64,000 bases of DNA, taken from assembly GCA_963971425.1 (NCBI GenBank), contig OZ020516.1, forward strand, positions 930,001-994,000, in the 5' to 3' direction. The position numbers and the translations under genes are program-made. This DNA comes from Bryoerythrophyllum caledonicum (taxonomy: Eukaryota; Streptophyta; Bryopsida; Pottiales; Pottiaceae). This document shows, piece by piece, positions 11,281 through 62,499 of the stretch; position 1 is the first letter of the stretch; each line of letters starts with the position of its first letter. Below the pieces are notes generated by a model. The model was not told the origin of the DNA, did no database searches, and saw only the letters and a program-made list of their open reading frames with translations.

Positions 11281-11722
11281 GCAATGAGAATGACATGACA
11301 AAAGAAGCAATAAGAATGACAAATTTGCATTCAAGAAGAAAGCAATCCAACTTATGCTCGACCCGAGGATAATATACATGATCCAACGATAACTTCTCTA
11401 CTAGATCCATCAAAATATATTAGCCTCGACTCAACCATATCTAGGAAGCCTGAAACCACAGTCAATAATATGCTCGACACAAAATTAACTAAGAAGCCCT
11501 TAACCACATTCAAAAGTATGCTAGATCCAACACTGAATAAACATCTCCACGACTGAAACGAAGAGCATGTGAAATGCCTATAGAAGACAAGACGGGAACA
11601 GTAAAAACAAACAAGACATCTATTTATTCACTGATGAAAAATATATATACAAATTTCACAAAAGAGTATTGTTCGTCATTATAGAGTGTCTCTTGACGTA
11701 CATAAAAATACACTGCTACAAC

Positions 11723-12513
11723 CTAGCAGATGATGCCGCATCATCTGGAATCTCAAACTCCACACCAAGGTTCTTAGAGGAGAGGGCCATTCCATTCGTG
11801 ATATACTTCATCAAAGGACTATTAGGACTCAATGGACGATTGCCTATACGTTTGCTATTCACATAATCCTTCAACTACCCGACACGGCATTCAGATGTCA
11901 AACGTCGGAGCCAAGGCAGGAGTTCTTGAATCAAAAACTTATCATACTTAGCTCCGCGCCGCCATGTATGAAGGAAAATGGCATTGCCAGAAGGATTACA
12001 GACGCTCTTTTCCGGGCTGTCGTCCAAAAGTAGAGTGTTCTCGGAGTTCATGATACCGAAGTCATCTCGACGATTATACAACGAAGAAGACAACGTTTTT
12101 AAAAAGATCAACTTCTTCGAATTATATTGAGACATCAAAAATGTATTCTACGACATCTCAATCTTCCCACAACTCTCTTGACCAAGAATGAGATCTGGAG
12201 GAGACAGATCACGAAAGAGGTAATTTGCGATCTCTTCAACGGTGGACTTCACCATTGAGCTCCAGATGACAACAGAGTTTGAGAGATCTCTGATGGTCGC
12301 TAGAAACTCACGGACGCCAGGGCGAGTATATACAGCTTTAGGACCTATGTATGCAGGGATGGTGGGCGAAAACTCCACCCGACTCCCGGAGGACCTCGAC
12401 GAGGCAGGTGCAAATGCTGCCTCGCACAAGATACCATTCAAATCCAAAACAATATTCAGCCACTTTTGGGGCCAAATGTTCTGGGCAATAGACACACTCC
12501 TAGAAGGACGATC
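11723..12513 (-). pseudogene. FCP1-like HAD phosphatase domain exon
   Basis: After the acceptor ACCAG the frame carries the HAD motif I as LDLNGILCE (about 24 residues into the exon), where plant FCP1/NLI-interacting-factor-like proteins often have DLNG. It then has VYTRPGVREFL, the motif II strand VVIWSSM, and the acidic motif LLLDDSPEK followed by NP. These are the landmarks of a Ser/Thr phosphatase of the FCP1 group, which acts on phosphorylated nuclear proteins such as the RNA polymerase II tail. A TAG at 12148-12150 and another at 11875-11877 interrupt the frame, but homology to the family continues on both sides of the first. A CAG codon at each place would restore the reading. Function in this fusion is unknown. 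Confidence 0.75.
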
Positions 12514-12567
12514 CTGGTACATGACCAACACAAAAAAGAGTCAATAAAAGGAAACATATGAATTTAC

Positions 12568-12708
12568 CTGATGAAATGCAGATTGAGCAACATGAGATGG
12601 AACTGTCACAGATTGCATGATTTCCACTCCACAATGCGACTGCTGGAAAACATTTCCAATCCGAGGCTTCAGTGCGATAGGACGGTGGACAATAACATCC
12701 AAAGTGAT
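12568..12708 (-). CDS. Small internal exon (47 codons) before the HAD exon
   Basis: Bounded by acceptor CCTCAG (before 12708) and donor CAG/GTAAATTC (12567). It is open in the frame set by both neighbours, exactly 141 bp, phase 0 at both ends. It encodes a hydrophobic and basic segment containing VIVHRPIALKPRIGNVFQQ. No domain is recognised, but phase continuity makes the exon credible. Confidence 0.65.
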
Positions 12709-12948
12709 CTGAGGACACAATTGAGTAAAATTGAATTGTTAAACAATTCTATAGATTGATGAAAAAAACGTTTTACAAAAAATTTGTACATTCCTTCTAG
12801 AGTACATCAAAAACTGTAAGGATTCGACACCTGCAAGCCACCACAAAGAGAGATAAGACCTACTGTGCGCTGAAAGCAGTCATTAGAAAAAGACAGGGCT
12901 AGATAACATCATGAAAATCGATTAACAATTTCAAAAAGGCTAGCCAAC

Positions 12949-12999
12949 CTTATTTTCCTCTGCCGCGTTCTGCCCAGGACCTTCTGGAGATGGTTTGTA
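12949..12999 (-). CDS. Remainder of exon 3 on the far side of the CACTA insertion
   Basis: Sixteen codons from 12996 to 12949 continue the exon 3 frame once the CACTA element and one GTA copy are removed, and end at a donor AAG/GTTGGC. The piece is too short to identify alone. Its value is the exact phase match on both sides of a dated insertion. Confidence 0.65.
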
Positions 13000-13519
13000 C
13001 ACTACAAGAAAACCAGCCCAATGTGACTAGGTTTTATGACTATAGTTGGGCATAAACCAAAATGTGACTAGCACTGTTTCTAGTCATTTTGACTTAGTCG
13101 CTTCGGACAATCTGACTGGGGGTCATATCGGACACTTCTTGTTCCCAATACTGCATTCCCACAATGTTTTGGAACCTCAAAACGGGACCTGCAGTGGGAC
13201 TTGGGTCCATATGACTCTATATAGTCATATATGTATGACTACACGTAGTCATCCATATGTAAATAGTGACTGAATGAATGACTATTTCTAGTGAGGTATA
13301 AGTCAACATAATACTGGTTTTATCACTACGCATAGTAGTGAGATGGTGACTAAATTGAGTCATTCATTGAGTTGGGAGAACGTGACTCTTTGGAGTCACA
13401 TCTATTTGGCAACCCCTAGTCACAAATACTCAAATAGCTTCCAAATGGTATGACTAAATGTAGTGAGGTATCAGTTAATACATGATTGGTTTTATCACTG
13501 CGCATAGTAATGAGATCTT

Positions 13520-13616
13520 GCACGCATTGAGTCATACATTGAGCCATACATTGAGTCATACATTGAGTCATACATTGAGTCATACATTGAGTCATACATT
13601 GCACGCATTGAGTCAT
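13520..13616. repeat. 12-bp tandem repeat in the CACTA left subterminal zone
   Basis: About seven head-to-tail copies of ATTGAGTCATAC, with variants such as ATTGAGCCATAC and GCACGCATTGAG at the edges. They amplify the GAGTCAT motif that is scattered through the rest of the subterminal region. The open frames across it are artefacts of the 12-bp period. Confidence 0.85.
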
Positions 13617-14056
13617 ACTCTAAAGGAAGAAGCATCTCTAAATAAGAGAGAATATGACACTTGTTCGCAAAGAATATGGGATAAATGTGATTACATGTTT
13701 CAAATGTATGCTCTCATATATTATTACCTTGATTTTTTCAAAATTAACACTTATAGAGGTGCCATTAGCAAAGAAGAAAGTAGAGCATGTTATAACACTT
13801 AACACATAACACTCACTAGTCTTACCAATTGTGTTTTTGTAGGGAAGTCAATTTTTTTTAACATTCATGAAATTATAACGTTTATAGGGATAACACTGCT
13901 TCCTTGATCCATTATGGTTTAGAATGTGATAGATTTATGAGTTTTGAATGAGTCCCAGGTCCTTAAGGGCTTACTTGATGTTGTTGTTTTTCACCAAGGC
14001 TGCAGGTGACGGTATCCATTTCCAGAGGCAAAGGCAGATTGCAAAGGCGGGCTTTT

Positions 14057-16129
14057 TGTGGGAATCCGTTCCCACATAATTCCGGATATAGCCTTAAAAT
14101 CCGGCTAGATATCAAATTTAATAAAAAAATTAGTAAATAGAATATTATAGTAGGAGGCAAATAGGTAGAAATAAGAAATAAGGAATCATGGTCCAACCGG
14201 AATCCTTAAATAGTGCTATTAGAGTACTTAGTATTAGTGCGGATGTTCGGAGAAATCCGGACTATTTCAGGGGTGATCCGGATTCCGGAACTGTCATCAT
14301 GAAACGGACCTCATCCGGCAGCCGTTTGTTCCTCAAGACAACTCTAAGAGCAGATCTGGTCGGCAGGGAGGTCGGCAGCAACACCACCAGCAGAAGAATC
14401 TCCAACCGGATCCGGAACTCAATAGCCGGAGGAGACTCCGGAGAAGACAGACGCCGGGAAGAAGATAAAGGAATCACCTAGGCGTAAGAATAAGAAGATA
14501 CCATAGTTAGGAGTAGTATTAGAAAATCCCTAGTCCCTTTTGAATTAGTAGCGATTAACGATGGGGCTCAGGATTGCACCCGGCTACTAACAAAGGAGAC
14601 TTAGGGAAGTTTGCATCCGGAAGGCCTTAGTCTAGAAAACTGTGAGTCCGGAAGGGATTTCCGGATTTCAGGGAATTTCCGGATTTCAGGGATTTCCGGA
14701 CTTCAGGGAAATTCCGGATTTCAGGGAACTTCCGGAAATCAGGGATTTCAGGGAACTTCCGGAAATCAGGGATTTCCGGAATTGAGGGATTTCCGGATTT
14801 CCGGATTTCCGGATTCCGGAAGGCGGAAGACGGAAACCGGAAACCGGAAGCCGGAAGCCGGAATCCATAATCCGGATCTCAGATCCATAAATTTCGGATC
14901 TGAGATTTGAAATCCGGATTTTCAGGGATAAGATCTTTTAGGATAAGATTTTCCGGATTCCTCGCGGATAAGATGGAGTCGAGGTTAGGAACTTAGTTAG
15001 TACTTAAAGGATGAGTCTTGGGAGGCTCATCATCTTGTTTCCTCTAGCTGAAAACATCTTAGCCTTTGAATATATTTTTCTATATCCTAGTGTTGAGCGT
15101 TTTTTTGTGAAGAACGGATCCATTGTGGTTTGTGTTGTTGTGGATAGGTTCTATCATAGTGAGCGTTATTGTGTTTGTAACTTGAGGTAACCGGTTGGGA
15201 CTTGCATTGGGAGATCGCCCGGAAGAGCTGGAGGAGAGGTTAGATAGAGTCTGACGATCCACAGGGACCGGAAGAAGCCTGGAGGGGGAGGGAGGGTATT
15301 GCAGGAGTGAGCCTCGTAGCTCCCAGGGCACGGAGAATCCGTGTGAACCCGGATTTCGGTTGTGGCCGGAATTTCCCCTTACGATAGAGCAAAAAGCCTG
15401 ATGTGTATGTCTAGGAGTCCTCGTTGCAAACCGTAATACTCACTTGGTAGAATCACGACAGCACTTGCCGGAATGTCGTTGTAGTCTAGACTTATCTCTG
15501 CGTGACCGCGTCCGGATGGCCATCCGGATGGTGTGAGAGTGTGGATCTAGCAGCAGCAATCAACCACCGGTTAGCGGAGTAGGGAGAGTGGGTGTCTACC
15601 ACTTTAAGTCACAGGCCAGTGGGGAATCCGGCCACTTACATAAAACAGGATCAGTGGCACCCGGCCACTAGCTTAAAAACTCCGGAAGAGGCTCCGTCAA
15701 AAGTTATCCGAAATCCGGAAGGATCCGGAAACTAAGGTAACAAGTCTAGAATCCGGAAAGATCCGGAATCTATTTTTAGAATCCGGAATCCGGAAGGATC
15801 CGGAATCTATTTTAAGGATCCGGAATCTATTTTAAGGATCCGGAATCCGGAATGATCCGGAATCCGGAATGATCCGGAATCCGGAATGATCCGGAATCCG
15901 GAATGATCCGGAATCCGGAATGATCCGGAATCCGGAAGGATCCGGAAATAGTTGTAGAACGAGTGAGAATGAGGTTCTGGTGGATTGGTGTTTAGTGTAA
16001 GTGGATTATTTAGTGATTCTAGAAGAAACAACAGGTCTTTGTGGGAACGAAACTGGAGCGGTTACTTTGGAAGCATTTAGTGACGATTAGGTGCATTCCG
16101 GAGGAATACTGTCTCTACAAACTGCAACA
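14057..16129 (+). mobile_element. LTR-like (solo-LTR-like) insertion nested in the CACTA element
   Basis: A 2,073-bp unit starts TGTGGGAATCCGTTCCCACA (itself a palindrome) and ends ACTGCAACA. It is flanked by the 5-bp duplication CTTTT (14052-14056 and 16130-16134). TG...CA ends and a 5-bp duplication are those of LTR retrotransposons. It is rich in CCGGAA/CCGGAT tracts (14640-14870 and 15660-15960). It shares its last 1.6 kb, from the box AGCGATTAACGATGGGGCTC at 14550, with the larger elements ending at 46951 and 48495. A short frame at 14188-14481 ending in a basic tail is probably a remnant of their gag-like gene. Confidence 0.8.
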
Positions 16130-16134
16130 CTTTT

Positions 16135-17340
16135 TGGCCAATCACAACCTGAAGGAAGCTTTTGATTAACAGAACATCATTCTCAATGAGAGGTACCCTT
16201 TATAATAGAATTTCAGCACCAGTGCTGTAGAGAAGCTTCCTCTTGCAAGATTTTGAATGTTAGCATTTGAGATTTTTGCTTCTGATGTAAATTTCTCTTT
16301 GCTGGGCACTGCAGAGAGTTGGTTGATACCTGACTTAACTGGAACGACACCTAAAGAGCTTGGAAACATGAGTGTTGTTTTCAGTCTGGACGAGGTGATC
16401 ATTTATGAACTCGTACTCTTAGAAATTCAGTAGGACTGTGCACGAAAACACTCAATCCAATGCTTTCTGTTGACCAAGGTTAGTCATGATTTTGGTTCAT
16501 GTGACGGTAAGGAGTGAGAATCCTTGAACACGTAACGTGTTCAATAGTTAGCTCTTTGGTGCATGTGACTGGAGGCAGTCACAGAGCATATCAACCTGCA
16601 TGGTAGATTCAAGTGTGATTCTATTTTTATTAAGGTAGTGTGATGCCATTCTTGTAGTGTTGAGACTGCACTATCAGGATTGCTTGTAGGGTTCAGAGAG
16701 GTTGGTTGAATGGTAGAGAAGATTATACAACAAGATGCACTTGCCTTCTTAGAATTTCAGCAGTGACCAACTCATATTACTGTGATTTGATCCAATTAGA
16801 TAAAATCTAGTTGAGTGTAGGTTTCGATGAAGGAGTTGTCTGACGTTATTTTATTTGAGACATGCCGCCAAATTTGAGATTGTTATTCAAGATTGTCATT
16901 CCTACACTATGCACGTCTAAGTGCGTTTTTGACAATGCCCATGGATGTGTTGAAGCCCCGGCTTCAAATTAAAGGCTCTAACAGAAGGTTTGTGCTACGT
17001 GATGACTTTTCAGAATTCAAATTCGTACCTATTTTTTTGTGAGCATGGAAAATCTGTATGAAAGTTAAGCCTACAAGGCATTTTTTTGTGCATCTGGAAA
17101 GCAAGTGGGAAGATAGAGCAAGTGGAATCATGATTTTTGGACTCTCTTGCAAATTAGTTACTAATTTTTGAAGGTGTATTTAAAAGTGTTTCTAGAATGG
17201 TGCCCTAAAATGACATCCTAGAATGTTTGCGCGCAAACATAGTAGTGTTGAACAGGGAAGTTTTTATGTAAGTGGAGATTGTGGACCTACTCCAATTTCA
17301 CAGCACTCACCTATTGAGCCAACAAGTAGAGGACTTCAAA
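16135..17340. other. CACTA interior, no gene seen
   Basis: Noncoding interior of the CACTA element to the right of the nested insertion. No transposase or captured gene is recognised. AGTCAT-type subterminal repeats resume from about 17350. Confidence 0.6.
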
Positions 17341-17712
17341 ATCATCTGATTGACATATATGACTACTAGTAGTCAGGTTATTTACTACATGACTGCGTGT
17401 AGTCACCCAAACCAACTCTCTTACTACAATAAGTCATACATAAACCAATTACCCTTACCATATGACTACATTACTATGACTATACATAGTAAGCACTCAG
17501 AGCATGACTCTGGGAACCGGACAGGAGAACATATGTCCCGTTCCCGTAGCCGTTCCCACCCAGGTCCTCAAAAATATGACTACATATATGACTAGTGCAT
17601 GACTGGACCCTCTTAGGACTGATTTTAGACTAAACCAATGACTGAGGTGACTACTCAGTCATATGCGCTTAGTCACATCCAGTCACATTGGGCTGGTTTT
17701 CTTGTAGTGGTA

Positions 17713-19329
17713 GTCCACTCGATCTTCATCCGCGATGAGGACGTCATCTTGTTCCGAAGGCACATCCACCCCACAGGACTCTCCGACGCACTCCTCAGAT
17801 CGTTGGACGCGAGCAGGTGATGGCTGTGGCGACGACCCCGGAGCTGAAGGAGCCCGATGTTGAGCTCTTGCTGAAACCGCCGGAATATGGAGTACGCGAC
17901 TGGGACTTCTATCCTCGGATCAAGGATACTCCACTAATCCTCTTGCCAAGAAAGAAGGATCCACCGGAGCAATAAGTACATCTTGATGGCCAGACGAGGT
18001 AGGATGGTAAAGATCTGCGAGGGAAGGGACCGAAGTCGGAATAGAAGACGAGCACCATAGTAAAGCAGACGACGAAGGTACTGCAGGACAAAGAGCAAAG
18101 GCAGAACTATCCTCGATGCGAGGATAAATCGAGGTCTGAGGAATTGTGGACAACGTTGGACCTGATGAGGTTGATTGACTGAGTTGAACCGTTTGGGAAA
18201 ACATTAAAGCCAACTCCGCTTTCATTTGAGCTTGAAGCTCAGCTCGAAGTTCAGCCGTCATTCAGTCCTTCTCCAGAGCAGACTCTTCTCTCTGCTTCTC
18301 TAGAGCAGCCACCATCTCCACCTGCCTTTGCTTGGACGCTTTCAACTGGTCTAAAATGTCCTACTTCTCCTTCTGCTCCCGAAGGCGCTTGTTGAGAATA
18401 TGCCTAAAGTAGTCACCTCCAGGTTCATACTTTACGGGCTCTCCAGGGGCAGGGGCTTCTTCGGCTGCGTTGAAGAAGAACGGATCGCCCGATCCGGAAG
18501 CGTTATCCAACCCCATTTCCACCAAAGGATCATTATGATCCGGATTTGACGTCCAACTGGCTGGAATGGGGTCTCTTCCACCTTTGTCGTCACTCGAGTC
18601 CGACAGCAGAATGATGGAATCATCTGGCACATTGAGAGCTGGACCCCCAGGAGTCTCTAGAGCCGATCGAGACTCAACCCCAACATAGTCACGAGGCGCA
18701 CTAGGAATACGGGAGGGCTCGACTTCATCACATCTTTGCATATCCACATCTCTAGCACCAGGAGAGAGTGATCGAGATGATTCATTACTGTCCATGAGCG
18801 TAGGGCGAGATGGACCTGCGTCATCACCGCGAAGGATCGAAAGATCCACACCCTCATTAGTACCATATGGATTAAAATCCAGTTGGTCCTCCGGGACACA
18901 CTGGTTTGCTTGGGTTGGTGAATGGGGGGTTGGCTGTGGTGGAGGGGACTCCATGGTCTCATCCTGCTGGGGCTGAGCCGTCTCTACATCCAATTTTGAA
19001 GTAGGGGCAGTACCAAGTTGATCTCCGGTTCTGCGACTACGAGAACGAACTGGGGCAGTCTGAGAGGCCGAGGTAGTTCGTGCTACTGTCTGCGTGGTCC
19101 GTAAGTCTGAACTACTCCGGAGTGTTGCGGTCCAGGAGTTCCTGCGGATTGAGGTGTCGCGAGGTTCTGCAGATTGCGGAACTCCGGTCACAGAAGGCAT
19201 TGGCCCAGCGTACGCACAATCCCTATGAATGAAATCATTCATGTCATACTTACATATCATTTTGGACTTGAACTTGTATGACAATCGGTAGTCTTTGTCA
19301 ATGACACCGTAGAACGAGGTTCCAAACAT
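17713..19329 (-). pseudogene. Exon 3: methylase-fold tail, disordered linker and coiled coil
   Basis: Starts after TTGCAG with MFGTSFYGVIDKDYRL, which continues the methylase-like motif I strand from exon 2 (the GxDxD-type acidic turn). It then becomes a long Ser/Pro/Asp-rich linker with acidic clusters, followed by a Glu/Lys/Gln-rich coiled coil (residues encoded near 18200-18380). Stops at 18361 (TAG), 18262 (TGA) and 17920 (TGA) interrupt an otherwise open frame. The exon resumes after the CACTA insertion at 12996-12949. Two palindromes lie inside it (18108-18126 and 17910-17928), and one of the TGA codons is a C-to-T change within such a palindrome. Confidence 0.65.
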
Positions 19330-19592
19330 CTGCAACATACAGAAAACAAATTTGTGAATGAGGTAAATGAGACAAACGAATTTAAACGGCGTCGATGACT
19401 ATGAGTATATCTTCGACCCGAGGATAATGAACAGGATTGCTAAGTACTTTTGCAAATTTGTCATAGAATAAGCAACGACGATTACAAGATATAGTAAGGA
19501 CATAAGACACATCATGCATCCACAAAACAGAGTCGGATAAAGTTATCCTCGACCCGAGGATAAACTGAAATAATGAAGAGAGACTCAATTAC
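19330..19592 (-). other. Intron 2 of the large gene, with two palindromes
   Basis: Donor GTAATTGAG at 19592 and acceptor TGTTGCAG at 19330. TATCCTCGACCCGAGGATA at 19544-19562 and TATCTTCGACCCGAGGATA at 19408-19426 lie inside. No coding frame. Confidence 0.75.
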
Positions 19593-20915
19593 CTTGCTGG
19601 CCAACACAAACTTTGAGCCACAATATACACCGAATACACGCTCTCCGTAGTTGCAGAATTGCGAAATGAGATTGAGGTAGAACTCCATCCGTGATTCAGA
19701 CCCGTGAACAGCGTAGCATGCCTCCAAGTACGTATTTTTCTCCGTGTAATAAGATGTATCCACGGTAGAGTAGCTTGGCATTACTTTCTCAACAAGAGAA
19801 CTGACATTTGGATGGTCACGTCGAATGAGGAAGAGCAAGTAAACCTTAGAACACTTGGACCTTGATGTCCCGAGGTTCAGTTGCTCGTACGCTAATGGCA
19901 AGTACGCCGCAGAAATCGGGATATACTTCTTCATCCATTTCTCTGCATACTTTAGAGCATGCATCGCTCTGTCTTTAGAAGAGGTGATCCAAATCCAAAC
20001 GGTAGGAGTTTTTAGAGTCGGGACCTTCTTCTGGGACAACAGTGTCTTTAAAAATGCGGAAAAGTATGGCTCCTCTGCAGAGTCGTCCTTGGATGACCAC
20101 CCAGGGACCTGACGAAGGTCAAGCAGTCCAAGAGGCCACGCTCTGTCCTCCGGCGGTGGCTCGAAATACTCACCGAATTTCATTTCTTCACCATCAAAGT
20201 CCCGAAGCTTGGATGGACCATCATGGTGAGAGAACTGGCTCTTAACCAAGAGAAACTTCGTGAAGAACGGAAAAACATTAGGGAACTTCTCCACCAAGTG
20301 GGAAGCCCGCTTCAACTTCCCCGCATTCGTCAACCGCATGGAGAAGAACTCCTTGTCAGGACGACAAAAGAGCATGTTGTAAGTTGCAGAAGACACGCGA
20401 TGATTTGCCTTCCACGACTTCCACACAACGTCGTCAACGAATCCGTCTGAAAGTAAAAACTTCAACGACGGGTCAATTGATATCAACTCCTGCATGACTA
20501 TGCGCTTTTTCTTCCAGCGATCAACCCAGTCCTCGTAATGGAAGCAAGAGCCATGAACCACTGCCGTTCTTCGTAGAGTGACTTTTGGGTACCCGTACGC
20601 TCGATCGCTGTCTACCAGGTAGGTGAACAAATCTCTCAAGTCGTTATCGGTTAGGTGACCCAACCTCTTGAAGAATTCGCGATGGATCGGTGAAACTCTG
20701 CTTTCCTTGGCTTCGTTGTATGGAGCCATGGTGTCAGGGTTGATAATCTCACCCCTGTTGTGCATGTCAAGGAAATCCTTCCACAATTTGAAGATGTCAT
20801 CAGGAAGTGAGATAACCTTGATCTCATTTGTGAGGTCTGATGACTTGCTAACCTGCTTCCCTTCTTTTGTGGGATCTATATTCTGGAAGCGGTTGACAAT
20901 GAGCTTGGAAAACAA
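19593..20915 (-). CDS. Exon 2: degenerate N6/N4 DNA-methylase-like domain
   Basis: This exon is open throughout (441 codons, phase 0 at both ends). The second half has the layout of a beta-class (circularly permuted) DNA methylase. There is a strand plus VPGW where such enzymes have (D/S)PP(Y/W), then a helix and the strand VWIWITSS, a segment SKVYLLFLIRRD, HGSESRMEFYLNLI in the position of HPTEKPVALLEYLI, and ERVFGVYCGSKFVLASK in the position of motif I (VLDPFxGSGT). The key residues of both motif IV and motif I are changed, so SAM-dependent catalysis is unlikely. A ParB-fold domain directly upstream of such a methylase is a known bacterial and phage fusion, which supports the reading. This is a pattern comparison by eye, not a search result. 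Confidence 0.55.
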
Positions 20916-21060
20916 CTGCAATCAAGAAACATGTTTTGTCAGGTCATATTCAGACCGAAGAATCACACAATTCTAAAAAATTGAATCTTAACATTTTATA
21001 ATCGTTGCATTGAAAACTGATATCCTCGACTCGAGAATAAACCTGAGGCGGACCACTTAC
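20916..21060 (-). other. Intron 1 of the large gene, with one palindrome
   Basis: Donor GTAAGTGGTC at 21060 and acceptor TTGATTGCAG ending at 20916 give a 145-bp phase-0 intron joining EKYL to LFSKLIVN. A palindrome copy (TATCCTCGACTCGAGAATA) sits at 21021-21039. Confidence 0.8.
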
Positions 21061-22437
21061 CAGGTACTTCTCAGTGTCAAAGACAGCGCCATTCATCCGA
21101 GTTGACCCCTCTTCTTGCTGGTAACTTAGACGTCCAGAGTTAAGCCAAGTTTGACGGCAACTTACAATCTGATTACCCCAGGTTGGTTGCGCATGGTCGA
21201 GGTAGTTGGTATCATTGTAGAACTTTGAGATTCTCTGCAACTTTAGAGGATCTCTTCACCAGACCACATACGCATCCCATCGCTGCAGGTCCCTCTTTCG
21301 AGATACTCCGCAATTTTCATTGTCTTGCAGTCTCTTGGATGCCTCAATGCTATGTTGTCCGTTAATGAGCATGAACTTGCCATTTTTGATGGCATCCCAT
21401 GAAACGGGCACAGCCTGAATCGGCTCACCATGTTCATCGATTGGACAGATGCAGATCTTCTGACGTTGGTTGACGTCGCCAAGCTGCACGAGGAAATCCA
21501 TCGTGCTTAAGACAATGGCTTCCTCCATCCCCCTGATCACGAACTATGCCTTCGCGACAACACACTGCTGAATTCGCACTGAATACGATGACTCTAATGG
21601 AAAGCAACCTCTACATTCCTCCCAGAACAGTCGTTGTGATTCCGTGATCTTCTGAAAGTCCACCTACGGGCCATTTCTGGCTTTCTTTGGGGTCGTGGAC
21701 CTCGTCATTGTGGATGAAGAGCTACCGCCGGCTGTGGACTTCCGCTTCTTGTTTGAAGGTTCCCCGGGCGTCGTAGGTGCAGTTGAAGGCCGCCTGGGAG
21801 GAGCACGACTTGAGGTACAGGGTGCGGTTGAACTTGACGGATTTCCCTGGGCAGTTGATTTTCCTCGTGCTAGACGACGTGCACAGGCTTCGACTAGAAT
21901 TGGTCGAGCCTCAAATGTTGACAGAAGTTGGTGAATCCGTGCTAATCGTCTATTTACTTTTTCAGCATCCACGTTCGTCCAGGGCTCATACTTTTTAAAC
22001 GCCTCCCTTAGTGACCCCTGTCCGTTTCGCGCGACACTTTCAAGCAATTCGGAGAAGTCGAACTGACCGAGAGTGGGCCCAACTTTCACAACAATGGAGT
22101 GGCAATGTGGAAGATCCACTCCAGCTCCATCAAACGCCTGAATTCCAAGAACTATGAAGTCTTGTCGCTGTTGCTCAACAAACGTAACTCTCTCGTTTCT
22201 GTTGAGTGGGACATAAGGGATTTCATCGTTCACCTTGATGGTTATGTGAACAGACTTCCCAAACTTCGAGAACGACCAGCTCTTTACATTATTCTGGAAC
22301 ACCCATAGAGTCCCATAGTTCTCAACGACATTGTCAATGAACGGGGATGGTGCCAGAGGATTCTCAAATCTCTGGATGAATATCTCGGAACCAGAATAAT
22401 CGTAGGTATCCTCTTTTGGCTGAATTAAAGATGCCAT
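21061..22437 (-). pseudogene. Exon 1: N-terminal region and ParB/sulfiredoxin-fold domain
   Basis: ATG at 22437 starts MASLIQPKEDTYDYSG. An uncharacterised N-terminal domain of about 190 residues is followed by a basic Ser/Thr/Pro linker with an NLS-like NKKRK. The ParB/Srx-like domain contains VPVSWDAIKNGKFMLINGQH, continuing SIEASKRL, equivalent to the GxHR/GERR helix of that fold, and then the strand WDAYVVW. ParB/Srx-fold proteins bind nucleotide or act as nucleases or CTPases on DNA. No ParB-type helix-turn-helix is visible. Stops at 21664 (TAG), 21544 (TAG) and 21256 (TGA) lie in one continuous frame of 459 codons, each reachable from CAG or CGA by one C-to-T change. Confidence 0.65.
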
Positions 22438-22484
22438 TTGCAGATGTCACAATTTTGCACTGATTAGTGCAATACTTTTAAACG

Positions 22485-22976
22485 TATCCTCGAGTCGAGC
22501 ATAACTGGTTTCTTCTAATCTTCGCTATGATTGACCGCGGTTGAGTTTTTTATCCTCGAGGCGAGGATAGCCTTTCTTTTGGTTGCTGATGGATTTGAGA
22601 GTGTAACTAGCAAAAGCAACTACCAGATATCGGTATTTGTAGGATCAAAGTTGATGAGGTAGAATGATACCATGACTATGATTAACGGTATATGACTGTC
22701 AGCTCTACTGATTCGGAAGTTTTGAATTACGTAAAGTATACTTGACTTGCGGATAATTTGAGATGTTGGACTTGTTAGATGGTATTTTTAGGACTTTCAA
22801 GGCAGCAAAATTGAAAAACAAACGGTTTATCCTCGACTCGAGGATAAGCTATGACTCTTGTATGGTTGGATAACTCTGATCCTGACCTCTTTATTCAGTC
22901 TGTTACGGTTAAGTGATGTCAGACTATATAATTTTGCACACAATCGTTAAGGGAGTTTATCCTCGTCTCGAGGATA
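22485..22976. promoter_or_regulatory. Four palindrome copies upstream of the minus-strand gene
   Basis: TATCCTCG-NNN-CGAGGATA copies at 22485-22503 (one mismatch), 22551-22569, 22828-22846 and 22958-22976. They sit within 540 bp upstream of the start codon of the ParB/methylase/HAD gene. The position suggests operator-like sites or a leader intron, as in the plus-strand gene at 30.2 kb. A binding function is inferred only from symmetry and repetition. Confidence 0.6.
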
Positions 22977-24386
22977 AAATTGTGCCTGCAGTGTGGTTGT
23001 ATACTGAAAGACACACTTTAAAACCCCTGATTCTTTATTATGCACAATATTAGATGTTCAACATTGGCCACTGCAATTAGATTTATGATAGCTGGATTGC
23101 TCACCTGTGAATTACCAACAAGTTTGTGGGTATGATATGCAACTCAATGAGTTCTGAAGCGCCCTGGAAAGCAAGTCGAAGTGGAGAACATCAGTTTCAT
23201 GAGCAAAACTTAACACAACCAGAGGCACACACACAAATGTATAGACGTTGGACCACACAAGCGTAAAACATCACATACATACTCATACTTTCAATAAACA
23301 ATCTCAAAAGCAGAACTTAGTTGAAGTCGATTACTTACTTGATGTGTATATTGAATATCAATCGACAAGCTCCTCCACAGCACAACAGCAGTATATTAAA
23401 TCCGAGTTGCAAGTCCTGTCACTCGCCGAATCTAGGTACCTAGAAGCTTTGCAACACTAGAAGCACAATCTCCTTATTTGGTGAGACCTTCTGCAAAACC
23501 CTCGCAACACTCTACACGATCTGCAAACCCTGAAATCTTGTACAAAACTCCTTTCAAATCAAACCCTAAGCTTGTACTTACTAATCACCTTAATTCTTAC
23601 AATTACAGCCATAATCGGATCTCACAAAACCCTCGCAACACTCTATCACACAGTGCTCAACGCAACTACAATTGACAACGTATGTGTAGCACGCGCGCTC
23701 ACACACACGCACTCACAAAGCAACACTCACTCTCACGCACTCACAAACATTCACTCATTCTCACGCACTCACAAACAAACGCTTACCCTAATGCACACAC
23801 ACCAACACACGACACACAATGACACACACAAAAACCTAACACACCCTCATGCACCCTCACATGCAGACGGAACCCTCACGCACCCTCACACCAAAACTCA
23901 CCCTCACGCACCTTCACACCAAAACTCACCCTCACGCACCCTCACACCAAAACTCACCCTCACGCACCCTCACATAGAAACTCACCTCACGCACCCTCAC
24001 GCACATACAAGCACTCACAGCTCGAACGAGCAGGAGGAGTGAGAAAGGCGGCGGCAGTTTTAGGTCAAGGTATGTACCTCGTTCGCCCATGACCGTGCAA
24101 TAGATATCATCCGTCGATCAACGGTTGCGACGGATGGATGACGAATCACATTAAGTTCAGAAGTTTCATGGAAATGGTGCGTCGATTTGTTTAACACTTT
24201 GTAATTTTATTTTATATTTTCACCTTTTATCTTCATTTTCTTGCCTTTCCTTACCACTTTAGTTAACACCTACGGTACCGTATTAAGAGTTTGACACCAA
24301 TTCCCTTCAAACTTATTGGATTCTATTGCTATAAAAAATGAAGGAGACGAAAACTTTTATTTCTAGTTTTGACCGTAAATTCTCAA
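22977..24386. repeat. Noncoding region with CA/CTCACG-rich minisatellite (23690-24010)
   Basis: No gene is recognised. From about 23690 the sequence is built from ACACTCAC-like repeats that sharpen into four copies of a roughly 31-bp unit (CTCACCCTCACGCACC plus TCACACCAAAA) at 23870-23990. The phrase AAACCCTCGCAACACTCTA occurs twice (near 23500 and 23625). A plausible splice donor (TCAAGGTATGTAC) lies near 24065, but no attached frame is convincing. Confidence 0.6.
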
Positions 24387-25305
24387 TTAACCCCTAAAGG
24401 ACCACTACCACTTTCGCTCTAATACCAGTCTAAATCTGGCACTGCCAAAATGAGACATGAAAATCACATTTTAAAGTGAATTTCGGATTTTCAACCGTAA
24501 GATCTTAAAATAGACTTGTACATGAACAAGCCATTGAATTTTGGTTGCAATTCACTGCGCGGATTGATAGATTTAGTGTTTAAAGTCAAAACAATTGTTC
24601 ATTTTCTTTGAGTAGATAAGCAGAGTTTTACTTCATTTTGCATCAAATCTTTGCATTGTACAAGGTCTAAATCTCTTACCATTGTCTTAAGCATGATGTT
24701 ATTTCCCATTACACCATTTTTTAGAGGTAAGAAAGCGGTGTAGTATATTCAAAACAAGTGTGCAAGGAGTGGAGGTTCAAAAATTGCCATTTCACGATTT
24801 TTTTTTTGTGAACTACGTTTGTATTGAATGATAATCCAAACGGTCAAGAAGAAGGTTTTCACCACATATTGTTGTTGAAAAAATAAAAAGTGAAAAATAT
24901 GTAGATCTCTAGGTTTTATGTAGAAAATATGAATATTTTTTCCCCCCTTCCCCAACAATGTCTGAAAATGTTTGACTTGGAATAAAATGCCTTTTAACAC
25001 TAAAGACAAGATTTTTTTTAAACAATTCCAAAGAAGGGAATATTCTTTATTTGTGGGAAAAATCTCAATGTCAATAGAAACTTTTGTCAAAAAATTTGGA
25101 GGTGCCGGAGTCCCCACTTTTGGCTTTATGTGATACTAACTTTCAAACCACAAATCCAAAAAATAAAATCATAATATCTCCACGAAGCTCTTACCAGAGG
25201 CAATCTAGAATAAGAATTTATGACAAAAGGATTTTTTTTCGAATTTTAGGAAACTGCCAAAAATCAGAAATCCCTCCGAAGGAGATTTGGTCCTTTAGGG
25301 GTTAA
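24387..25305. mobile_element. piggyBac-like MITE, second full copy (inverted)
   Basis: A 919-bp unit bounded by TTAA at 24387-24390 and 25302-25305, with CCCCTAAAGGACCA and TGGTCCTTTAGGGG termini. It is the reverse complement of the 7632-8558 copy along its length. For example, the segment after the left end (CTACCACTTTCGCTCTAA) mirrors the end of the other copy. Noncoding. Confidence 0.85.
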
Positions 25306-25995
25306 GACTTTAAAAATAAACACTTACAAAAACTCATAAACTTTCACCGCACGGATTGAAAGATGATAGTGTTTCAAGTCAACCAAATGGTTCATTTTCT
25401 CCACTGTGTTTACTGCAGCTGCACAATTCGACTTCAGTTGGTGTCAAATTTTTGCATTACACAACGTCTAAATCCATTACCATCTTGTTAACCTCTAAAG
25501 GACCAAAGTCACCTTTTGGGGGATTTTTTTATTTTTGGGCAGGTTCCTAAAATTTGGAAAAAAATCAATTTTCTCTGAAATTTTTATTCTAGATTGCTTT
25601 TCATAAGAGCTTCGTGGTCATATTTTTAATTTATTTTTTGGATTTGTGGTTTGAAAGTTAGTACCACTTATAGTTTTTGAGGGAAATTGTCAAGGAACTT
25701 TAGGGATTAAGCATGATGTTAGTTCCTTATACACCGAATTTTAGATGTAGAAAGGAGGTGTAGCATATTCAAAACAATTCTGCAAGGACTAGAGGTTCAA
25801 ATTTGGCAAATCCACGCTTTAATCCTTCAAAACTTCAAATGTTAGAGATTGATAATCCAAATGGTCAAAATGAAGGGTTACACCACATATTGATATGAAG
25901 AAATTAAAAAGTGAAAACTATAAAGATCTCCAAGTTTGATGATGAAAAGAAGAAGTACTTTTTTATATCTCGCCCGACAATGAGTGACGATGTCT
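25306..25995. mobile_element. Older truncated piggyBac-like copy hosting a nested insertion
   Basis: 25306-25487 and 25711 to about 25995 together match the middle of the 24387-25305 element (same order: GCACGGATTGA, TTTGCATTACACAACGTC, GCATGATGTTA, CAAAACAATTCTGCAAGG). They have more mismatches and no intact termini. The copy is split by the unit at 25488-25710. Confidence 0.75.
25488..25710. mobile_element. Short piggyBac-like element nested at a TTAA site
   Basis: A 223-bp unit bounded by TTAA (25488-25491 and 25707-25710), with diverged termini (CCTCTAAAGGACCA; ACTTTAGGGA). The related full copy has the unoccupied site GTCTTAAGCATGATG at about 24684-24698. Here the same site is split with TTAA on both sides. 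The sequence therefore shows the empty and filled target directly. Confidence 0.85.
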
Positions 25996-27140
25996 AAAAA
26001 TGTTTCCCTTAGTTCTACGCTATTTCTCAATCAAGTCGCGATGTTTTTTTTGATACTGAGAAGGAAAATAATAGTACTTGCGAGTATTGAAATTCTCACA
26101 TTCACTAGAGTGTCCTACCAAAGGTTTCTCGAGCATGGGGACGGAATTTATAACACCCTCCTCCCATATTCCCCATTTTCTAAGAAGCTCATTGTAAGGA
26201 CTTAGGCTATTTATTAGCTAAATACAAGGACTGCTATCTCACATTTGTGGTGGTTGTCATAACCCCTAGAAATCTAAGCATTTTTGGGACCTCCAAATCT
26301 AGAAGTTGCCATTTTCTACCACCTTGTAGAATTTGAGGTAAGGTAAAATATGTTTGAATGTTGGATGTTTATCATATGTAAAATCATAACTTTCAAAGTT
26401 GATGCATATTATTTTATAGCTTAGAATATATAGTCTATCTTATATAAATGGAGACTTGATAATTGTTACCCCATACATTTTGCTCATATATTTCTCTAAG
26501 AAGTAGATAGAGTTGAATTTCACTTGCAAAATTGCAAAACCTCATTGTGTTATTTCAACATTCATCTAAATTGATTTATAGAAGAATGTGTAAAATGATT
26601 GAAAGTAATAAATTTGTGAATAATCTCAAGTTGTCTAATAAAAATTGTGTATTGTATAAAATTTTCACACTAAGAATGTCAAAAGCATGGAGGCGAACGT
26701 CCTTCCATTTACTGCATTTCCTAATATGTTGCTGCAATTATGTTTCTTTCAGAGCTATTCATGGCTCAATGTCTCAATATATTATTCGATTTTCACCTAA
26801 TCATGGTACGAAATGTGATTTTAGAAAGTATAATCCTTGTACAAAAAAGTTTCAATGAAGGTTAAAAAACTCAAACCAGTTTCTAAAATTTTGCATGTAC
26901 ATAGTCAACTTAGTCTTCTACATAGAAAAAAATATGAGAAAAAATTTAGGGGCAGCAATGATCAAGTCCTCCTTCGCACCATCTAGACATTGCCTCTTGG
27001 GCAAAGGGAAAAAGAAGTTTTGATTCAACTTTGAACGTTATGATTTTACAAATGAAAAACATCCAACAATTGAAATTTGAATTAGTTCTTCTAAACCGGG
27101 TTGCATATTGAATTCTATACTATGCCCCATCCGCACTAAT
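25996..27140. other. Noncoding AT-rich stretch
   Basis: No recognisable gene. A 108-codon open frame at 26532-26858 has no domain or codon structure I recognise and is probably chance. Confidence 0.55.
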
Positions 27141-27159
27141 TGAGACCCCAACAACAATA

Positions 27160-27430
27160 ATTACGGTCCCTAGCAACAGCTAAAGGGGCCCAACAACAGT
27201 GGCTGGGGCCTCCAACAATAGCTCCTGGGCCCCCAACAATAGCCGCCGGGGTCCCCAGGAGCTATTGTTGAGGATCCCAACGACTGTTGCTGGGGCTCCA
27301 GCCGCTATTGCTGGGGCCCCAGCAACAGTCGTTGGGATCCTCAGCAATAGCTGTTGGGGCCCCAATAACAGTCGCTGGGGCCCCCAACAATAGTTGTTGG
27401 GGTCTCAACAACAGCTGCTGGGGCTCCTAC
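27160..27430. repeat. Degenerate GC-rich tandem repeat of GGGGCCCC/CAACAG units
   Basis: Roughly a dozen units of 21-24 bp combine CAACAATAG or CAACAGTCG with GGGGCCCC. Units occur in both orientations (GCTGTTGGGGCCCC as well as GGGGCCCCAGCAACAG), so the block can fold on itself. Frames on both strands are open because the unit length is near a multiple of three. I do not call a gene. Confidence 0.8.
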
Positions 27431-28151
27431 AACAATGTCTTCGTCTTTTTGTCTTTGTCTTTTTGTCTTTGTGTTTTTGTCTTTTACTTTCAACACGAAA
27501 TTGAACATACTTTTTTATTTTAATAATTTTAGAAAAAAAATTATATTTTTATAAATTCAAACTGATACTTACATTGTTACTAATACTTATTATTTGGCTC
27601 TTTTGAAGAGGATCTTACGGTTACTTTTTAAATATTTTTCATGTGTTACAACCCATTTTTTACACTTCGTCATGTACGATAACTTAATGAATATTCTATG
27701 ATGTGAATAACATCCAACATTATGGCAAATTCACATCCATTCTACACGATTTAGCAAGAATGATTCATTCACTACCAATTATTGCACCTTGTAGCATTAA
27801 GGAGATATTTTGGTAAATTACCAAATTTAGGATGAAATTGAGTGTAATATCATGGATATCTAAGTAGTTTATAATGTCTCTCAAATGTAGTCATATAAAT
27901 CACACTTCAAATATATTTTGAATGTCAATCTCCAAATCCAAAAAGCATTTTTTCTTCGATGAAGTAATCAAAATTTTCTCTAAATTTAACTTAACATTTA
28001 GTCAACTCATCGATTCATTAATTCCTTACATTGGATAAATATTGTAACAAAAACACATATTTAAGACATTGCTATTTCATTATGAAACGTGGTTATAAGC
28101 AGAATAGCAAACTTTGATTCAATACTAAGGATTAATGTAATCAATTGTAAA
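27431..28151. other. Noncoding stretch
   Basis: Starts with a CTTTTTGTCTTTGT tract and continues as AT-rich DNA. Nothing recognisable. Confidence 0.6.
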
Positions 28152-28260
28152 GAAGAAGAAGAAGAACGTCGGTCTCCAAAGGAGGCCGACGTGCATAAAG
28201 TGTCTGTTCGTTCCACTACTAAGACCATGCCCATCGGATTGGGAATTAGTGATCCACTAT
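28152..28260 (-). mobile_element. LINE 3' end fragment with hairpin and short (GAA)5 tail
   Basis: Homologous to the 3' end of the LINE at 57.8-60.8 kb: the segment AAAGTGTCTGTTCGTTCCA and ACTAAGACCATGCCCA are shared. The terminal hairpin at 28167-28191 (CGTCGGTCTCC, AAA, GGAGGCCGACG) precedes a tail of five GAA units when read toward lower coordinates. It is a severely 5'-truncated copy, as is usual for LINE integration by target-primed reverse transcription. Confidence 0.75.
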
Positions 28261-30049
28261 ACATATTAAATATCATGGAAAAATGGGGCATAGGGAGTGA
28301 ATGATAGACTCTTATGAATATTGTTTGTCTACATTTCTAGAGCTTGAGCAGCTACATGTATAGTTTTTATGAATGTTGCATGTGTTAGATGCTTTGCAAA
28401 TTTGAAATCTTTATACTCCTAGAATACATGCATCTTTGGTTGCACACTTTTCTAAAGTATTTAAGAGAACAATATGCTTTGATTTCTCCCAAAAACTCAT
28501 GGTTCTTGACTACGAAAACTTTTTAGAGTCTTGGAATCTGTTTTTTCAACGCAGATTCATGTTTTTGTAGTGTTTGCAATGTGTAGATTTGTTTTAGCAT
28601 TCATTATCTTGTCTTTCTTTTTGTTATATTTCTTCAACTGCTATGGACTTGCACTATTACGTTCAAGTGGTAAGAAGATATACATAAACAATAATAGTTA
28701 CTTTTTTTATGACCCAATAAAGAAATGATGAATACCTATGTGGTACAAAACTTCACTATGATTAACAAACTTTATTTTAAAAAACACAATGCTATGTTAT
28801 CTTTTCTAGTAGGTAAATAAATAGTCCTCCAATAATACCGCAGTACTACAGGTGTATACAAATTTGAAGGAGGAGTGCCCCCCCTCTAGAATATTATTTT
28901 TTTGGTCTTGTACATAGAAAGACACAAGTGAAAATGTATTTGTAGTTCTTTCAAAAAAATTACCCGTTTTGTAATTTCCATTTCCATTGACAATTTGGTT
29001 GATGATTGTCACTTTCCAAGAGTGGCTTTTGATTTAGACTTTTATTTTATTTTATTATGTTAGTATAAATTTTTTAGATAAAGTTAAATAATTTCAATTT
29101 TAGTTGAATATTTTTTAAAATGTGTGCTCAAACTAGCCATTAAGTAAATTTTGATTTGATATCTTTTTAAATATTTGACTTTTTGGTTTGTAAAAAATTA
29201 TTGCTATTTATATATTTCCCTTGACTTATTTCAATTTAACAAAATTTAGAAGTCTTCCTTCTTTTGGCAAATTCTATTGGAAATATATGTGTGAGACACA
29301 AGAAGTTATTCCCTTCATTAAAGTTGTTTGCATATTCAAGAGTAATTGAAATTGTGAAAATTGTAATGAATTTAAGTAGTTTCTATCTTGAATGAAAATT
29401 AGATTTTGTTCAATGTTTAATTCACAGAGAATATTAAAACAAATAAATAAGATAAAATCTTCTGAAATTCTAATTATTTTTTATTCAAATTATTTTAATT
29501 TACATAAAGTCAATTTTAGAGTTAATTCAGTATATTTTTTCCCCTAATTTTCCAATTTAAGATACATTTTTTTATCGATATTTAAATAATCGTTTTTGTT
29601 TATTTTTAATTATTTTTAATCATGAGAATTGATATATTTGCTTTGTATTTTTTTGAATTTTTATTTAAATAAGAATATTAAAACGAATTAAAAAGTTATA
29701 ATGTTTTAATGTTATAATGTTACAATTTTAAATTATTTACATTATTTTAAATTACATGAAGACAATTTTAGAATTCATTTAGTTTCTTTTATACTCTAAT
29801 TTAGTAATTTTAAAAGTATTTTCTATCGTTATTTTAATAATCGTTATTTTTTTCCAATTTCAAAAAAATTAATTAATCATGAGAAGTTTTTCTTTGCTTT
29901 GTATTTTTGTTTTTTTTGGGAACACAAATGATAAAGATCGGTAGCTAACTTTATTTTGTTTTATTTGGGTTGGTAGCTTTCTAAATTAGTGTGACCCTAA
30001 TACCAAGAAATGCTCTTCGTCAGCTGATATGTAGTGACACTAAAAAAGT
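28261..30049. repeat. Very AT-rich noncoding region with a direct duplication
   Basis: No gene is recognised. About 29415-29650 and 29665-29905 are diverged direct copies. Shared landmarks include GAATATTAAAAC, CAATTTTAGA, TAATCGTT and AATCATGAGAA followed by CTTTGCTTTGTATTTTT. Confidence 0.6.
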
Positions 30050-30242
30050 ATAATTTTTTTCCCTCCAAAAAATGTTGCCGTTGAAAATTTCCTTTCCCGC
30101 CCACCTCCGGTTTTCATGCACAGCTCTGCTCATGACTTTCATACTTTCAGTTCAAGAGTGTCATTTCGTACTCTCTCCTCTCTAAACATATCAACATCAC
30201 CTCGGCTCCCTTGTTCGTGCATCAAGCTTCTGCTTCTTCGGA
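30050..30242 (+). promoter_or_regulatory. Putative promoter and leader exon of the DUF7869-type gene
   Basis: A pyrimidine-rich, relatively GC-rich stretch (CTCTCTCCTCTCTAAAC, then CTTCTGCTTCTTCGGA) ends in a consensus donor GA/GTAAGATA at 30243. It is typical of a plant 5' leader exon. The matching acceptor TGTTGTAG lies immediately before the ATG at 32111. No clear TATA box is seen. Confidence 0.55.
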
Positions 30243-32110
30243 GTAAGATACTGTATTTGTCGATATTGTTGACTTAGGGTTTTATGTAGAAGTGTAACTG
30301 TGTGCGATTATGTTTCTTGTACGTTGGCTACATTCATATTCTCCTATAGTATGCCATTGTCACACAGAACATTGATTTGTGGGGCGCTTTCTGTGTACTC
30401 TCCTTGTTGCGGCCGAAGGCATTATGTTTATTACAGTTCTATTGTCGGACTTCCGTTTATGGTGTGAAGTGCATAGAGAGTCATCTCCTTAGAAATTGTT
30501 CCAAAAATTTTGGGAGCACTGTAGCATTGCGATCCTCCGTGAATATTGTGTGTCTGTTGAAATTGTTATCTTCGAGTCGAGGATACCAATATTTCACGTG
30601 ATTGTATGAGAGGGTTACATAACTATCTAATTAGTGAAATTTTCATCACATATATCCTTGACTCGAGAATGCAACTTAAGTTAAATCATACTTTTCCACA
30701 CGTGAATAATGATGTCTTTACTCATAATTGGAAATGAGAACTTTTTAAATATGTAAGTTATCCTCGGGTCGAGGATAACTCAACCCAATTTATTGCTATT
30801 CAGAAATCAAAAATCGAAAAATTACAGACACATTCATTCAATTCAGAATAATAATGACTGTTTGTAATTTCCTCAAATCTATCTGATTGGTAAAATATTT
30901 TAAGGATATTCTCATGGTGAGGATAAAATTTATTGGATGGAATAGATTCCTACACATATACTTCTGTGAATATCCTCGACTCGAGGATAACTGCATTCAT
31001 TCTTTTGATACACAAATTGCATGACGAAAGTAAAATATAGATTTATCTTCACTATGGCCATGCTTGTTTGTCGAATTTGATAGAATCTCTGAGCACATAA
31101 TATTCAAAGATTATCCTCGAGTCGAGGATAATGGGGAGTGTCCTAATTGAGAGAAGTATTATATCATTGATGAGATATTCCAGACCTTTCTGTATAAATT
31201 GTGATGATTTCAGTCAGCTTGTAATTGTCTAGTTAGTGACAATTTCATCACGTTTATCCTCGACTCGAGGATAAAACTTAAGTAAAATCATACTTTTGCC
31301 ACACGTGATAAATTATGTCTACACTGACGATTGGGTATCAAGGTATTTAGTAAACATGTTAGTTATCCTCGACTCGAGGATATCTCTTCTCAACCAATTA
31401 CTTTTCAAAAATTTAAATCCAAAATATTACAGACATTCTCATTTAGTCCAAAAGAATGATGACTGTTTTATAATCCTTGAATCAATGTGATTGGAATATT
31501 ATTTTTTGGATTTTCTCATGCCGTGGATAACTTTATTGGATGTTTTTAGTTTCCTACGGAAATCCTGTTTTGGTTATCCTCGACTCGAGGATAACTGACT
31601 TCAACTTTCTTATCCAATATTGCATGACAAAGGTTTTGATCAGATTTATCTTTACTTTGGTTTTGCAATGGTATTGTCCATTTTGATCGACTCTGTGTGT
31701 ACACATTATTTACAGATTATCCTCGCGTCGAGGATAATTTTAAGCGTCCTGTTTGAGAATAGAATTGTATCATTGATGAGATATTCTAGGCTTTTTTGTC
31801 TCTATTATGATGTTTTTAGGCAGCAACATTTTTGCGGAAGTTGTGATGACCACAATATTATCTATGTGTTATTTATATTTTGATTGTTTTTTGGAGAACA
31901 ATTTCTATGTCTGTTGTTGTCCTAGAGTTGAGTAGGACATAAATGCCATTGGAACTCATTTGAAGGTACAATTGATAAGGGGTTATTTTCGAGTCATTGA
32001 TAATCGGTATTTTGTTATGTATATTCCCTTTTTATTCAAACTGTCTTCTGACATCTTTTCATACAACTGGTTAACCATTCCTTGATCCCTTCGAATGTGA
32101 TCTGTTGTAG
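30243..32110 (+). other. 1.87-kb leader intron carrying nine palindromes
   Basis: Runs from GTAAGATA to the acceptor GTTGTAG directly before the start codon. Nine copies of the 19-bp palindrome lie at 30567, 30653 (diverged), 30759, 30971, 31112, 31255, 31364, 31575 and 31718. An internal direct duplication of about 605 bp (roughly 30560-31140 and 31190-31745) accounts for the paired spacing. No coding frame. Long leader introns with repeated sites are plausible regulatory regions. Confidence 0.7.
30567..31736. promoter_or_regulatory. Palindrome array TATCCTCG-NNN-CGAGGATA
   Basis: Nine sites with 8-bp arms and a 3-bp centre (ACT, AGT, GGT, CGT). Seven have both arms perfect: 30759, 30971, 31112, 31255, 31364, 31575 and 31718. 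The site at 30567 has one arm change. The site at 30653 has changes in both arms and lies in the older half of the duplication. Symmetry, fixed length and persistence through the duplication suggest a protein-binding site or a hairpin function. No binding protein is identified. Confidence 0.65.
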
Positions 32111-62243: not shown

Positions 62244-62244
62244 C

Positions 62245-62485: not shown

Positions 62486-62499
62486 ACAGATACGGTTCT

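Follow-up and report, generated by a model that had tools for sequence, protein, structure and literature searches.

The 19-bp palindrome TATCCTCGNNNCGAGGATA, present at 20 sites in a 64,000-nucleotide stretch of the Bryoerythrophyllum caledonicum genome (contig OZ020516.1, positions 930,001 to 994,000; hereafter the window, in whose own numbering coordinates are given), is most likely bound by the regulator of the DNA transposon that carries it, a reading with good indirect support in the sequence. The transposon holds two divergently transcribed genes, here called gene A (plus strand) and gene B (minus strand). We propose that the palindromes are lineage-specific DNA-binding sites of this large two-gene element, in which gene A, of the DUF7869 family, would be a putative transposase, and gene B would encode a regulator with ParB/sulfiredoxin-fold and CTD-phosphatase-like domains. 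The regulator, probably dimeric, would bind palindromes that lie, in both genes, chiefly in introns and leader regions and, once bound, would keep the chromatin of the element transcribable or tune its transcription, each family acting on its own copies wherever these are located, as VANC does for the VANDAL elements of Arabidopsis. We infer the role of gene B as reader, its binding as a dimer and its part in anti-silencing or transcriptional control, and the anti-silencing role is suggested by analogy; taken as a whole, the proposal appears to us evenly poised between right and wrong.

A scan of the window with TATCCTCGNNNCGAGGATA, allowing up to three mismatches, returned 12 exact sites, six with one mismatch and two with three (30653 and 30907), all confined to positions 11353-31736, while 100 dinucleotide-preserving shuffles of the window gave on average 0.15 matches (maximum 2). 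A preliminary description of this DNA, made from the letters alone, had counted 19 sites by hand, one short of the total, since the group that starts at 30567-31718 has ten members and not nine. Its statement that the motif is absent from the rest of the window held in the same scan. Perfect palindromes of the 8-3-8 form, regardless of sequence, numbered 16 inside the element (block shuffles: mean 0.48, maximum 2) and one in 31.3 kb of the window outside it (shuffles: mean 0.50, maximum 3); this comparison leaves out 57601-64000, and its shuffle, which moves two-base blocks, is approximate.

Matches to the window from elsewhere in the genome end at common limits near 10066 and 36412, and these delimit a whole transposon copy (10066..36412; 26.3 kb including nested insertions), as judged from its terminal inverted repeats (TIRs), its 4-bp target site duplication (TSD) and two relatives, C4 and C9. 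The left TIR, AACACCATATTCATTAAAATGAGAC (10066..10090, plus strand), is identical at 25 of 25 positions to the left ends of C4 and C9, the right TIR (36388..36412, minus strand) differs from the left one by two mismatches, and the TSD GTAT flanks the element at 10062..10065 and 36413..36416. C4 (19.9 kb, TSD TACA) and C9 (18.4 kb, TSD AGTA) have the same ends as the window copy, and each carries 20 sites with up to three mismatches. A 25-bp TIR with a 4-bp TSD was thus found in all three full copies, as in TIR DNA transposons; comparison with the available part of PMC12730594 gave no match to a named transposon superfamily. The earlier suggestion that a motif shared by two unrelated genes reflects a common mobile element is correct and holds far beyond the window: TIRs, TSDs and the co-occurrence of both genes in many copies bear it out, and the genes, unrelated in sequence as had been said, are nevertheless parts of one transposon.

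Gene A (32111..34903, plus strand) is a member of DUF7869 (Pfam PF25273, E 1e-45, above the curated cut-off), as the earlier label had it; in the window copy, extra sequence from about 34821 alters its C-terminus. Among the best 49 of 5,360 first-look candidates scored, gene A copies form groups of about 92-96% and of 83-85% identity, many of the 49 being interrupted by in-frame stops. The predicted structure of gene A (mean predicted local distance difference test score 30) was useless for reading a DDE/RNase H fold. Gene B exon 2, for which the best 95 of 1,523 first-look candidates in the genome were scored, lies divergently upstream of gene A in at least 33 of the 49 scored gene A copies (32 by nearest match, plus C3:25876294 added from reading the lists for the two genes). 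DUF7869 is in general abundant in this genome, with many open frames of more than 1,000 codons among the best 150 of 3,613 first-look candidates scored, and no paper naming DUF7869 was found in the literature searched.

The reading frames in C4 and C9 suggest five exons for gene B, which we infer to encode a single protein, and the ends of introns 1 and 2 can be read directly in the sequence. In the window, all on the minus strand, exon 1 occupies 21061..22437 (from the C4 reading frame and splice ends), with a predicted domain of ParB/sulfiredoxin fold whose place, about 21196-21640, is transferred from the C4 copy, for which the model and fold match were obtained; exon 2 occupies 19593..20915 (from the reading frame and genome matches); exon 3, at 17710..19329, is cut by a nested insertion; exon 4 lies at 11780..12530, with approximate limits (from Pfam PF03031 and blastn blocks); and exon 5, the last, at 10487..11278. 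The insertion (13000..17709), which has 29-bp perfect ends and is no part of the system, is CACTA-like, an assignment based on its CACTACAAGAAAA end, which we take to mark that superfamily. Exon 4 of C4 matches the NIF/CTD-phosphatase family (PF03031, E 8e-15), so that the HAD domain previously ascribed to the minus-strand gene is a NIF phosphatase-like one; the methylase ascribed to the same gene found no support in the family searches made.

Six palindromes lie within gene B in the window: one in the intron between exons 4 and 5 (11353..11371, one mismatch), two in the coding sequence of exon 3 (17910..17928, one mismatch, and 18108..18126, exact), two in intron 2 (19408..19426, one mismatch, and 19544..19562, exact) and one in intron 1, about 21 nt from the donor (21021..21039, one mismatch). 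Four more (22485, 22551, 22828 and 22958; 22485..22976) precede the start of gene B and probably belong to a leader intron, and ten (30567, 30653, 30759, 30907, 30971, 31112, 31255, 31364, 31575 and 31718; 30567..31736) are upstream of gene A, within a putative leader intron with splice-like ends (30243..32110, plus strand) that consists partly of a duplication of about 604 bp. In C4, ten of the 20 sites precede gene A and four precede gene B; introns 1 and 4 hold one each, intron 2 holds two, and the remaining two are in coding exon 3. Gene A starts directly after AG in the window copy, C4 and C9; gene B does so in C4, C9, L004 and L012, with a changed base in the window copy, and in L008, F2 and F3 (the latter two being related families described below) CAG stands shortly before its start. 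Given these AG and CAG ends, the sites upstream of both genes are probably in leader introns. The ratio of observed to expected CpG is higher in the site-bearing leaders than in the site-free intergenic part, partly from the CpG inside the sites themselves.

Both exon 3 palindromes read YPRxED in C4. Across nine copies of exon 3, 13 of 21 matches (up to four mismatches) read YPRxED, with at least one per copy, and the remainder have H, C, L, K, G or a stop within that motif, one of them being a chance match. In L017, L004 and other copies, the frame continued through introns 1 and 2 into the palindrome reads YPRVED again, which may be chance.

Genome-wide, 1,911 exact TATCCTCGNNNCGAGGATA sites were found, in clusters, against none for the reversed pattern. 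Of 50 sites listed, all on contig 1, 47 lie within 3 kb of coding similarity to gene A or B; for six of these (in L006 and L014) the nearby similarity belongs to another family or a fragment, and the stretches concerned, with palindromes masked, match the leader DNA of the window's own family, F1 (C9, L004, L005 and L012), at about 78-88%. One further listed site (L010) lies between divergent genes A and B, where the sequence is 92% identical to the C9 leader, and two are within TATCCCCG-type tandem arrays. The listed sites cluster with homologues of either gene or with the leader DNA of such elements, and the random dispersal that the preliminary description had named as a refutation of its reading was not seen. 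One exact form of the motif was also sought in viral contigs, with no match.

The sites have been preserved in introns that have otherwise diverged. In a gapped comparison of intron 1 from seven of eight fetched copies (L007 was left out, having no clean splice ends), the first palindrome retains 14-16 of its 16 arm bases in 21 of 21 pairs, while identity over the other aligned columns is 43-57% for the 18 distant pairs and 81-90% for the three close ones, gaps being allowed, which inflates identity. The first site starts 21-22 nt from the donor in four copies in which it is exact. An earlier, ungapped estimate of 24-32% flank identity, from those four of the eight copies, chosen for an exact first site, overstated the divergence and was discarded. 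Within the duplication in the gene A leader of the window copy, 74 of 80 arm columns are identical, as are 361 of 517 others.

Related elements carry palindromes of their own. In L003, a distant gene B (27% identity in exon 1, 28% in exon 2) is accompanied by a different palindrome, and L022-L023 belong to the same family, F2, whose gene A is 49% identical to that of F1 over 607 aligned residues and whose gene B was recognised by position in exon 3 and by similarity elsewhere, namely in the first two exons and at the beginning of exon 4. The F2 locus has 29 sites of TTAGCTCG-N3-CGAGCTAA (up to three mismatches), in introns, in 52-bp and 47-bp arrays ahead of the two genes and, for four weak ones, in between; 4,656 exact sites occur genome-wide and none of the reversed pattern. 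The F2 half-site TTTAGC equals what we take to be the operator half-site of KorB, a match with a different spacing that is probably due to chance; these letters were not found in the available text of the KorB paper (PMC11790492). In family F3 (L030-L031), gene B, with exons 1 and 2 lying 11 kb apart, carries TCAGCTCG-N3-CGAGCTGA in its leader and in three introns (1, 2 and the one that precedes exon 4). This TCAG-type palindrome has 1,086 exact sites in the genome and none reversed; L014, which holds the gene A assigned to this family, has five sites with up to three mismatches, one of them exact. In a further subfamily, F4 (L032, 3.5 kb only), exon 1 is 44% identical to F3 and 33% to F2, and TCAG-type sites with mismatches lie in intron 1 and the leader.

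F2 and F3 are 57.6% identical in gene A and 37.6% in exon 1, and either differs more from F1 (42-49% and 25-29%, respectively). Their palindrome arms differ from each other at one position, and F1 is set apart from both by three, with the two arms changing jointly. The tree of gene A, with 11 rows, agrees with that of gene B exon 1, with 7: F2+F3 is supported at 100/99 in gene A and F1 versus F2+F3 at 100/100 in gene B, subject to a warning of long branches. The joint change of the arms between families is in line with the trees of both genes. The common core CTCGANTCGAGNNNW has 9,851 matches in the genome and its reversed pattern 70. Outside this clade, five DUF7869 loci (10 kb each) showed no such arrays and no gene B similarity, gene B having been sought with F1 proteins only and L028 having a masked run; among the loci read, gene B and the palindromes accompany only this DUF7869 clade. 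Three of these loci have gapless palindromes near their DUF7869 genes (L027 4951-9040, L028 2276-4964 and L029 5109-5128), namely GAGGGGTCGAGGCCTCGACCCCTC in repeats of about 2 kb and GGGTGTGCGCGCGCACACCC, and are possibly the sites of other families.

The system closest to this pattern is VANC/VANDAL. VANC21 binds a 9-base motif in noncoding DNA of VANDAL21 (introns, intergenic and terminal parts) and causes methylation to be lost (PMC5735166), and VANC6 targets other families with other motifs, the target motifs often being in tandem repeats (PMC5735166, PMC10398659). The two systems have in common a transposon whose transposase (here putative) is conserved and whose second protein evolves faster (PMC5735166, PMC10398659), and many short family-specific motifs in introns and leaders, with arrays arising by tandem duplication. 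The moss elements likewise have a family-specific repeated motif, mainly in noncoding DNA, and F1, F2 and F3 pair different motifs with diverged proteins, F4 sharing the F3 type. The components differ: VANDAL elements are of MuDR type, VANC proteins are DUF1985/DUF287 and the VANC21 motif is the 9-bp YAGTATTAY, whereas here a DUF7869 gene A and a gene B with a ParB-like fold go with a 19-bp palindrome, and the five C4 gene B exons gave no Pfam match to DUF1985 or DUF287 at E up to 1. Binding and demethylation have been demonstrated for VANC; the present system is read from sequence.

For the ParB-like fold, a claim of the preliminary description, structure prediction of the C4 copy followed by a fold match placed gene B exon 1 in the ParB/sulfiredoxin fold, and none of the sequence profiles tried did so; the fold is thus a prediction, and the model, made of exon 1 alone, ends in low-confidence helices. 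Comparison with palindromic parS sites, which the same description had found tempting, gains from the fact that palindromes and gene B differ together between families, and loses from the mostly missing P-motif arginine and from the helix-turn-helix (HTH), of which none was identified in gene B, the description itself having seen none of ParB type. Like ParB, Noc, KorB and VirB (PMC10770331, PMC11790492, PMC12704722), gene B would have a ParB/Srx-fold domain in a protein tied to palindromic sites; unlike the ParB-CTPases, it belongs to a eukaryotic transposon and includes a NIF phosphatase-like exon. VirB, which is of ParB type, is loaded at virS sites, palindromes resembling parS, and counteracts silencing by H-NS (PMC10770331), and KorB acts over distance from its OB sites (PMC11790492), which makes anti-silencing by a ParB-fold protein plausible by analogy. 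In a 2025 survey of ParB folds, sulfiredoxin is the most common eukaryotic form, and the word stem 'transpos' is absent from the main text (PMC12704722).

Several observations weigh against our proposal. The window's own copy of gene B holds in-frame stops in exon 1. Gene B gave no ParB match in Pfam or NCBIfam at E up to 1, its domain alone none in Pfam or PHROGs at E up to 10, and a sequence search of PDB with gene B nothing significant for ParB. The P-motif GxxR reads GQHS in C4, C9, L008, L011, F2, F3 and the window copy, and GQHR in L004 only, and neither a DNA-binding domain (HTH) nor a C-terminal dimer domain was identified in gene B. Some sites are not where leaders and introns are expected: two lie in the intergenic part of C9 (10842 and 13575), four weak ones between the two genes of F2 and three after gene A in L014, 0.4-0.8 kb from the right end, and some F3-type sites are isolated. 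The F3 gene A, found only in the separate locus L014, is tied to the F3 gene B by motif type alone. The sites of F4 are decayed TCAG-type ones, so that the motif does not change at every step of protein divergence; it has stayed stable between F3 and F4, whose exons 1 are 44% identical. Finally, 42-bp tandem arrays of TATCCCCG-N3-CGGGGATA occur at L015, L016 and L024 (contig 1, 0.11-1.23 Mb) with no similarity to gene A or B there, and the centre triplets of the sites are unbalanced between strands, with GGT 28 times and ACC ten times in the sense orientation.

A bolder form of the proposal is a eukaryotic ParB-parS-like transposon system, in which the gene B product would load at the family palindromes of introns and leaders and spread over the element, its CTD-phosphatase-like domain keeping RNA polymerase II engaged and chromatin open on the element's own copies only; we hold this version tentatively and consider it doubtful. 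Plain autoregulation, in which an element-encoded factor or repressor would act on leader operators with no chromatin or anti-silencing role, is rather unlikely in our view. It would account for the site clusters ahead of both genes, and the ParB-fold protein KorB represses from operator sites (PMC11790492). With sites also in coding exon 3 and in three introns (1, 2 and 4), the pattern is broader than that of a promoter operator, yet compatible with autoregulation.

Subterminal repeats are bound by the transposase in CACTA and Ac elements, and TnpA of CACTA/En-Spm is an element-encoded protein that reads repeated short subterminal motifs in its own element. The palindromes could correspondingly be sites of the gene A product, serving assembly of the transposition complex or enhancement of cutting: all three full F1 copies carry them, gene A has a sub-threshold HTH match (PF02796, E 0.04), and the three sites close to the right end of L014 would suit such a role. 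The outer 1.28 kb (left) and at least 3.8 kb (right) of the three full F1 elements are site-free, unlike the placement of TnpA motifs, and the HTH-like core IMGVS..TFYR is invariant between F1 and F2 while the outer palindrome arms differ, though it could still read the shared core. We consider this explanation unlikely.

The choice of 'operator or hairpin' offered by the preliminary description comes down, not conclusively, in favour of a site shared at the DNA level. An RNA hairpin in the introns and leaders of both transcripts, acting in splicing, export or binding of a protein, could form an 8-bp stem with a 3-nt loop, and most noncoding sites do lie in predicted introns or leaders. A comparison of sense-strand arm mismatches covered 146 oriented sites with 1,168 arm pairs, leaving out sites outside single-gene stretches, L006 1889-2812 and L014; it gave 41 G-U pairs, which RNA keeps, and 40 A-C pairs, which RNA loses, with no bias towards RNA pairing. 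From this one test we favour recognition of DNA rather than RNA; the evidence is moderate, because related copies are not independent and decayed sites alone would look balanced too. Two sites in coding exon 3 and some intergenic ones likewise fit a hairpin poorly, whereas the GGT/ACC imbalance speaks for it and is not explained by a pure DNA dyad. On balance, the hairpin is quite improbable. An unrelated short repeat family inserted or amplified here is very hard to maintain: TATCCCCG-type arrays do exist without gene A or B similarity nearby, but the sites hold their place in intron 1 across copies with diverged introns, and those of related families, with different arms, recur in introns 1 and 2 and in leaders.

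Sequence-specific self-recognition by a transposon has already been demonstrated for VANDAL elements. If our proposal of an element-encoded regulator acting on family palindromes is right, transposons would have arrived at it a second time by unrelated means, through an easily recognised 19-bp palindrome that recurs thousands of times and in no fewer than three motif types within one genome; the strategy would then look like a recurrent one, and candidate protein-DNA specificity pairs would become available. We know of no earlier case of a ParB-like fold acting on eukaryotic chromatin. The literature searched held no paper joining ParB with eukaryotic transposon, transposase and terminal inverted repeats, none joining ParB-like with transposable element, plant genome and palindromes, and none joining TnpA, Suppressor-mutator, demethylation and subterminal.

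The TATCCCCG-N3-CGGGGATA arrays, made of a related palindrome with 476 exact sites genome-wide and TTTAGGG repeats in L024, were considered as a fourth family and rejected, as L015, L016 and L024 show no similarity to gene A or B. Elsewhere in the window, an inverted long repeat at 8000-8558 and 24387-25954, with arms 78-95% complementary, flanks the left half of the element, a Tc1/mariner-like transposase open reading frame of 335 aa with HTH_Tnp_Tc3_2 and DDE_3 domains lies at 3499-4506, and a perfect AGA trinucleotide repeat of 787 bp occupies 57770-58556.

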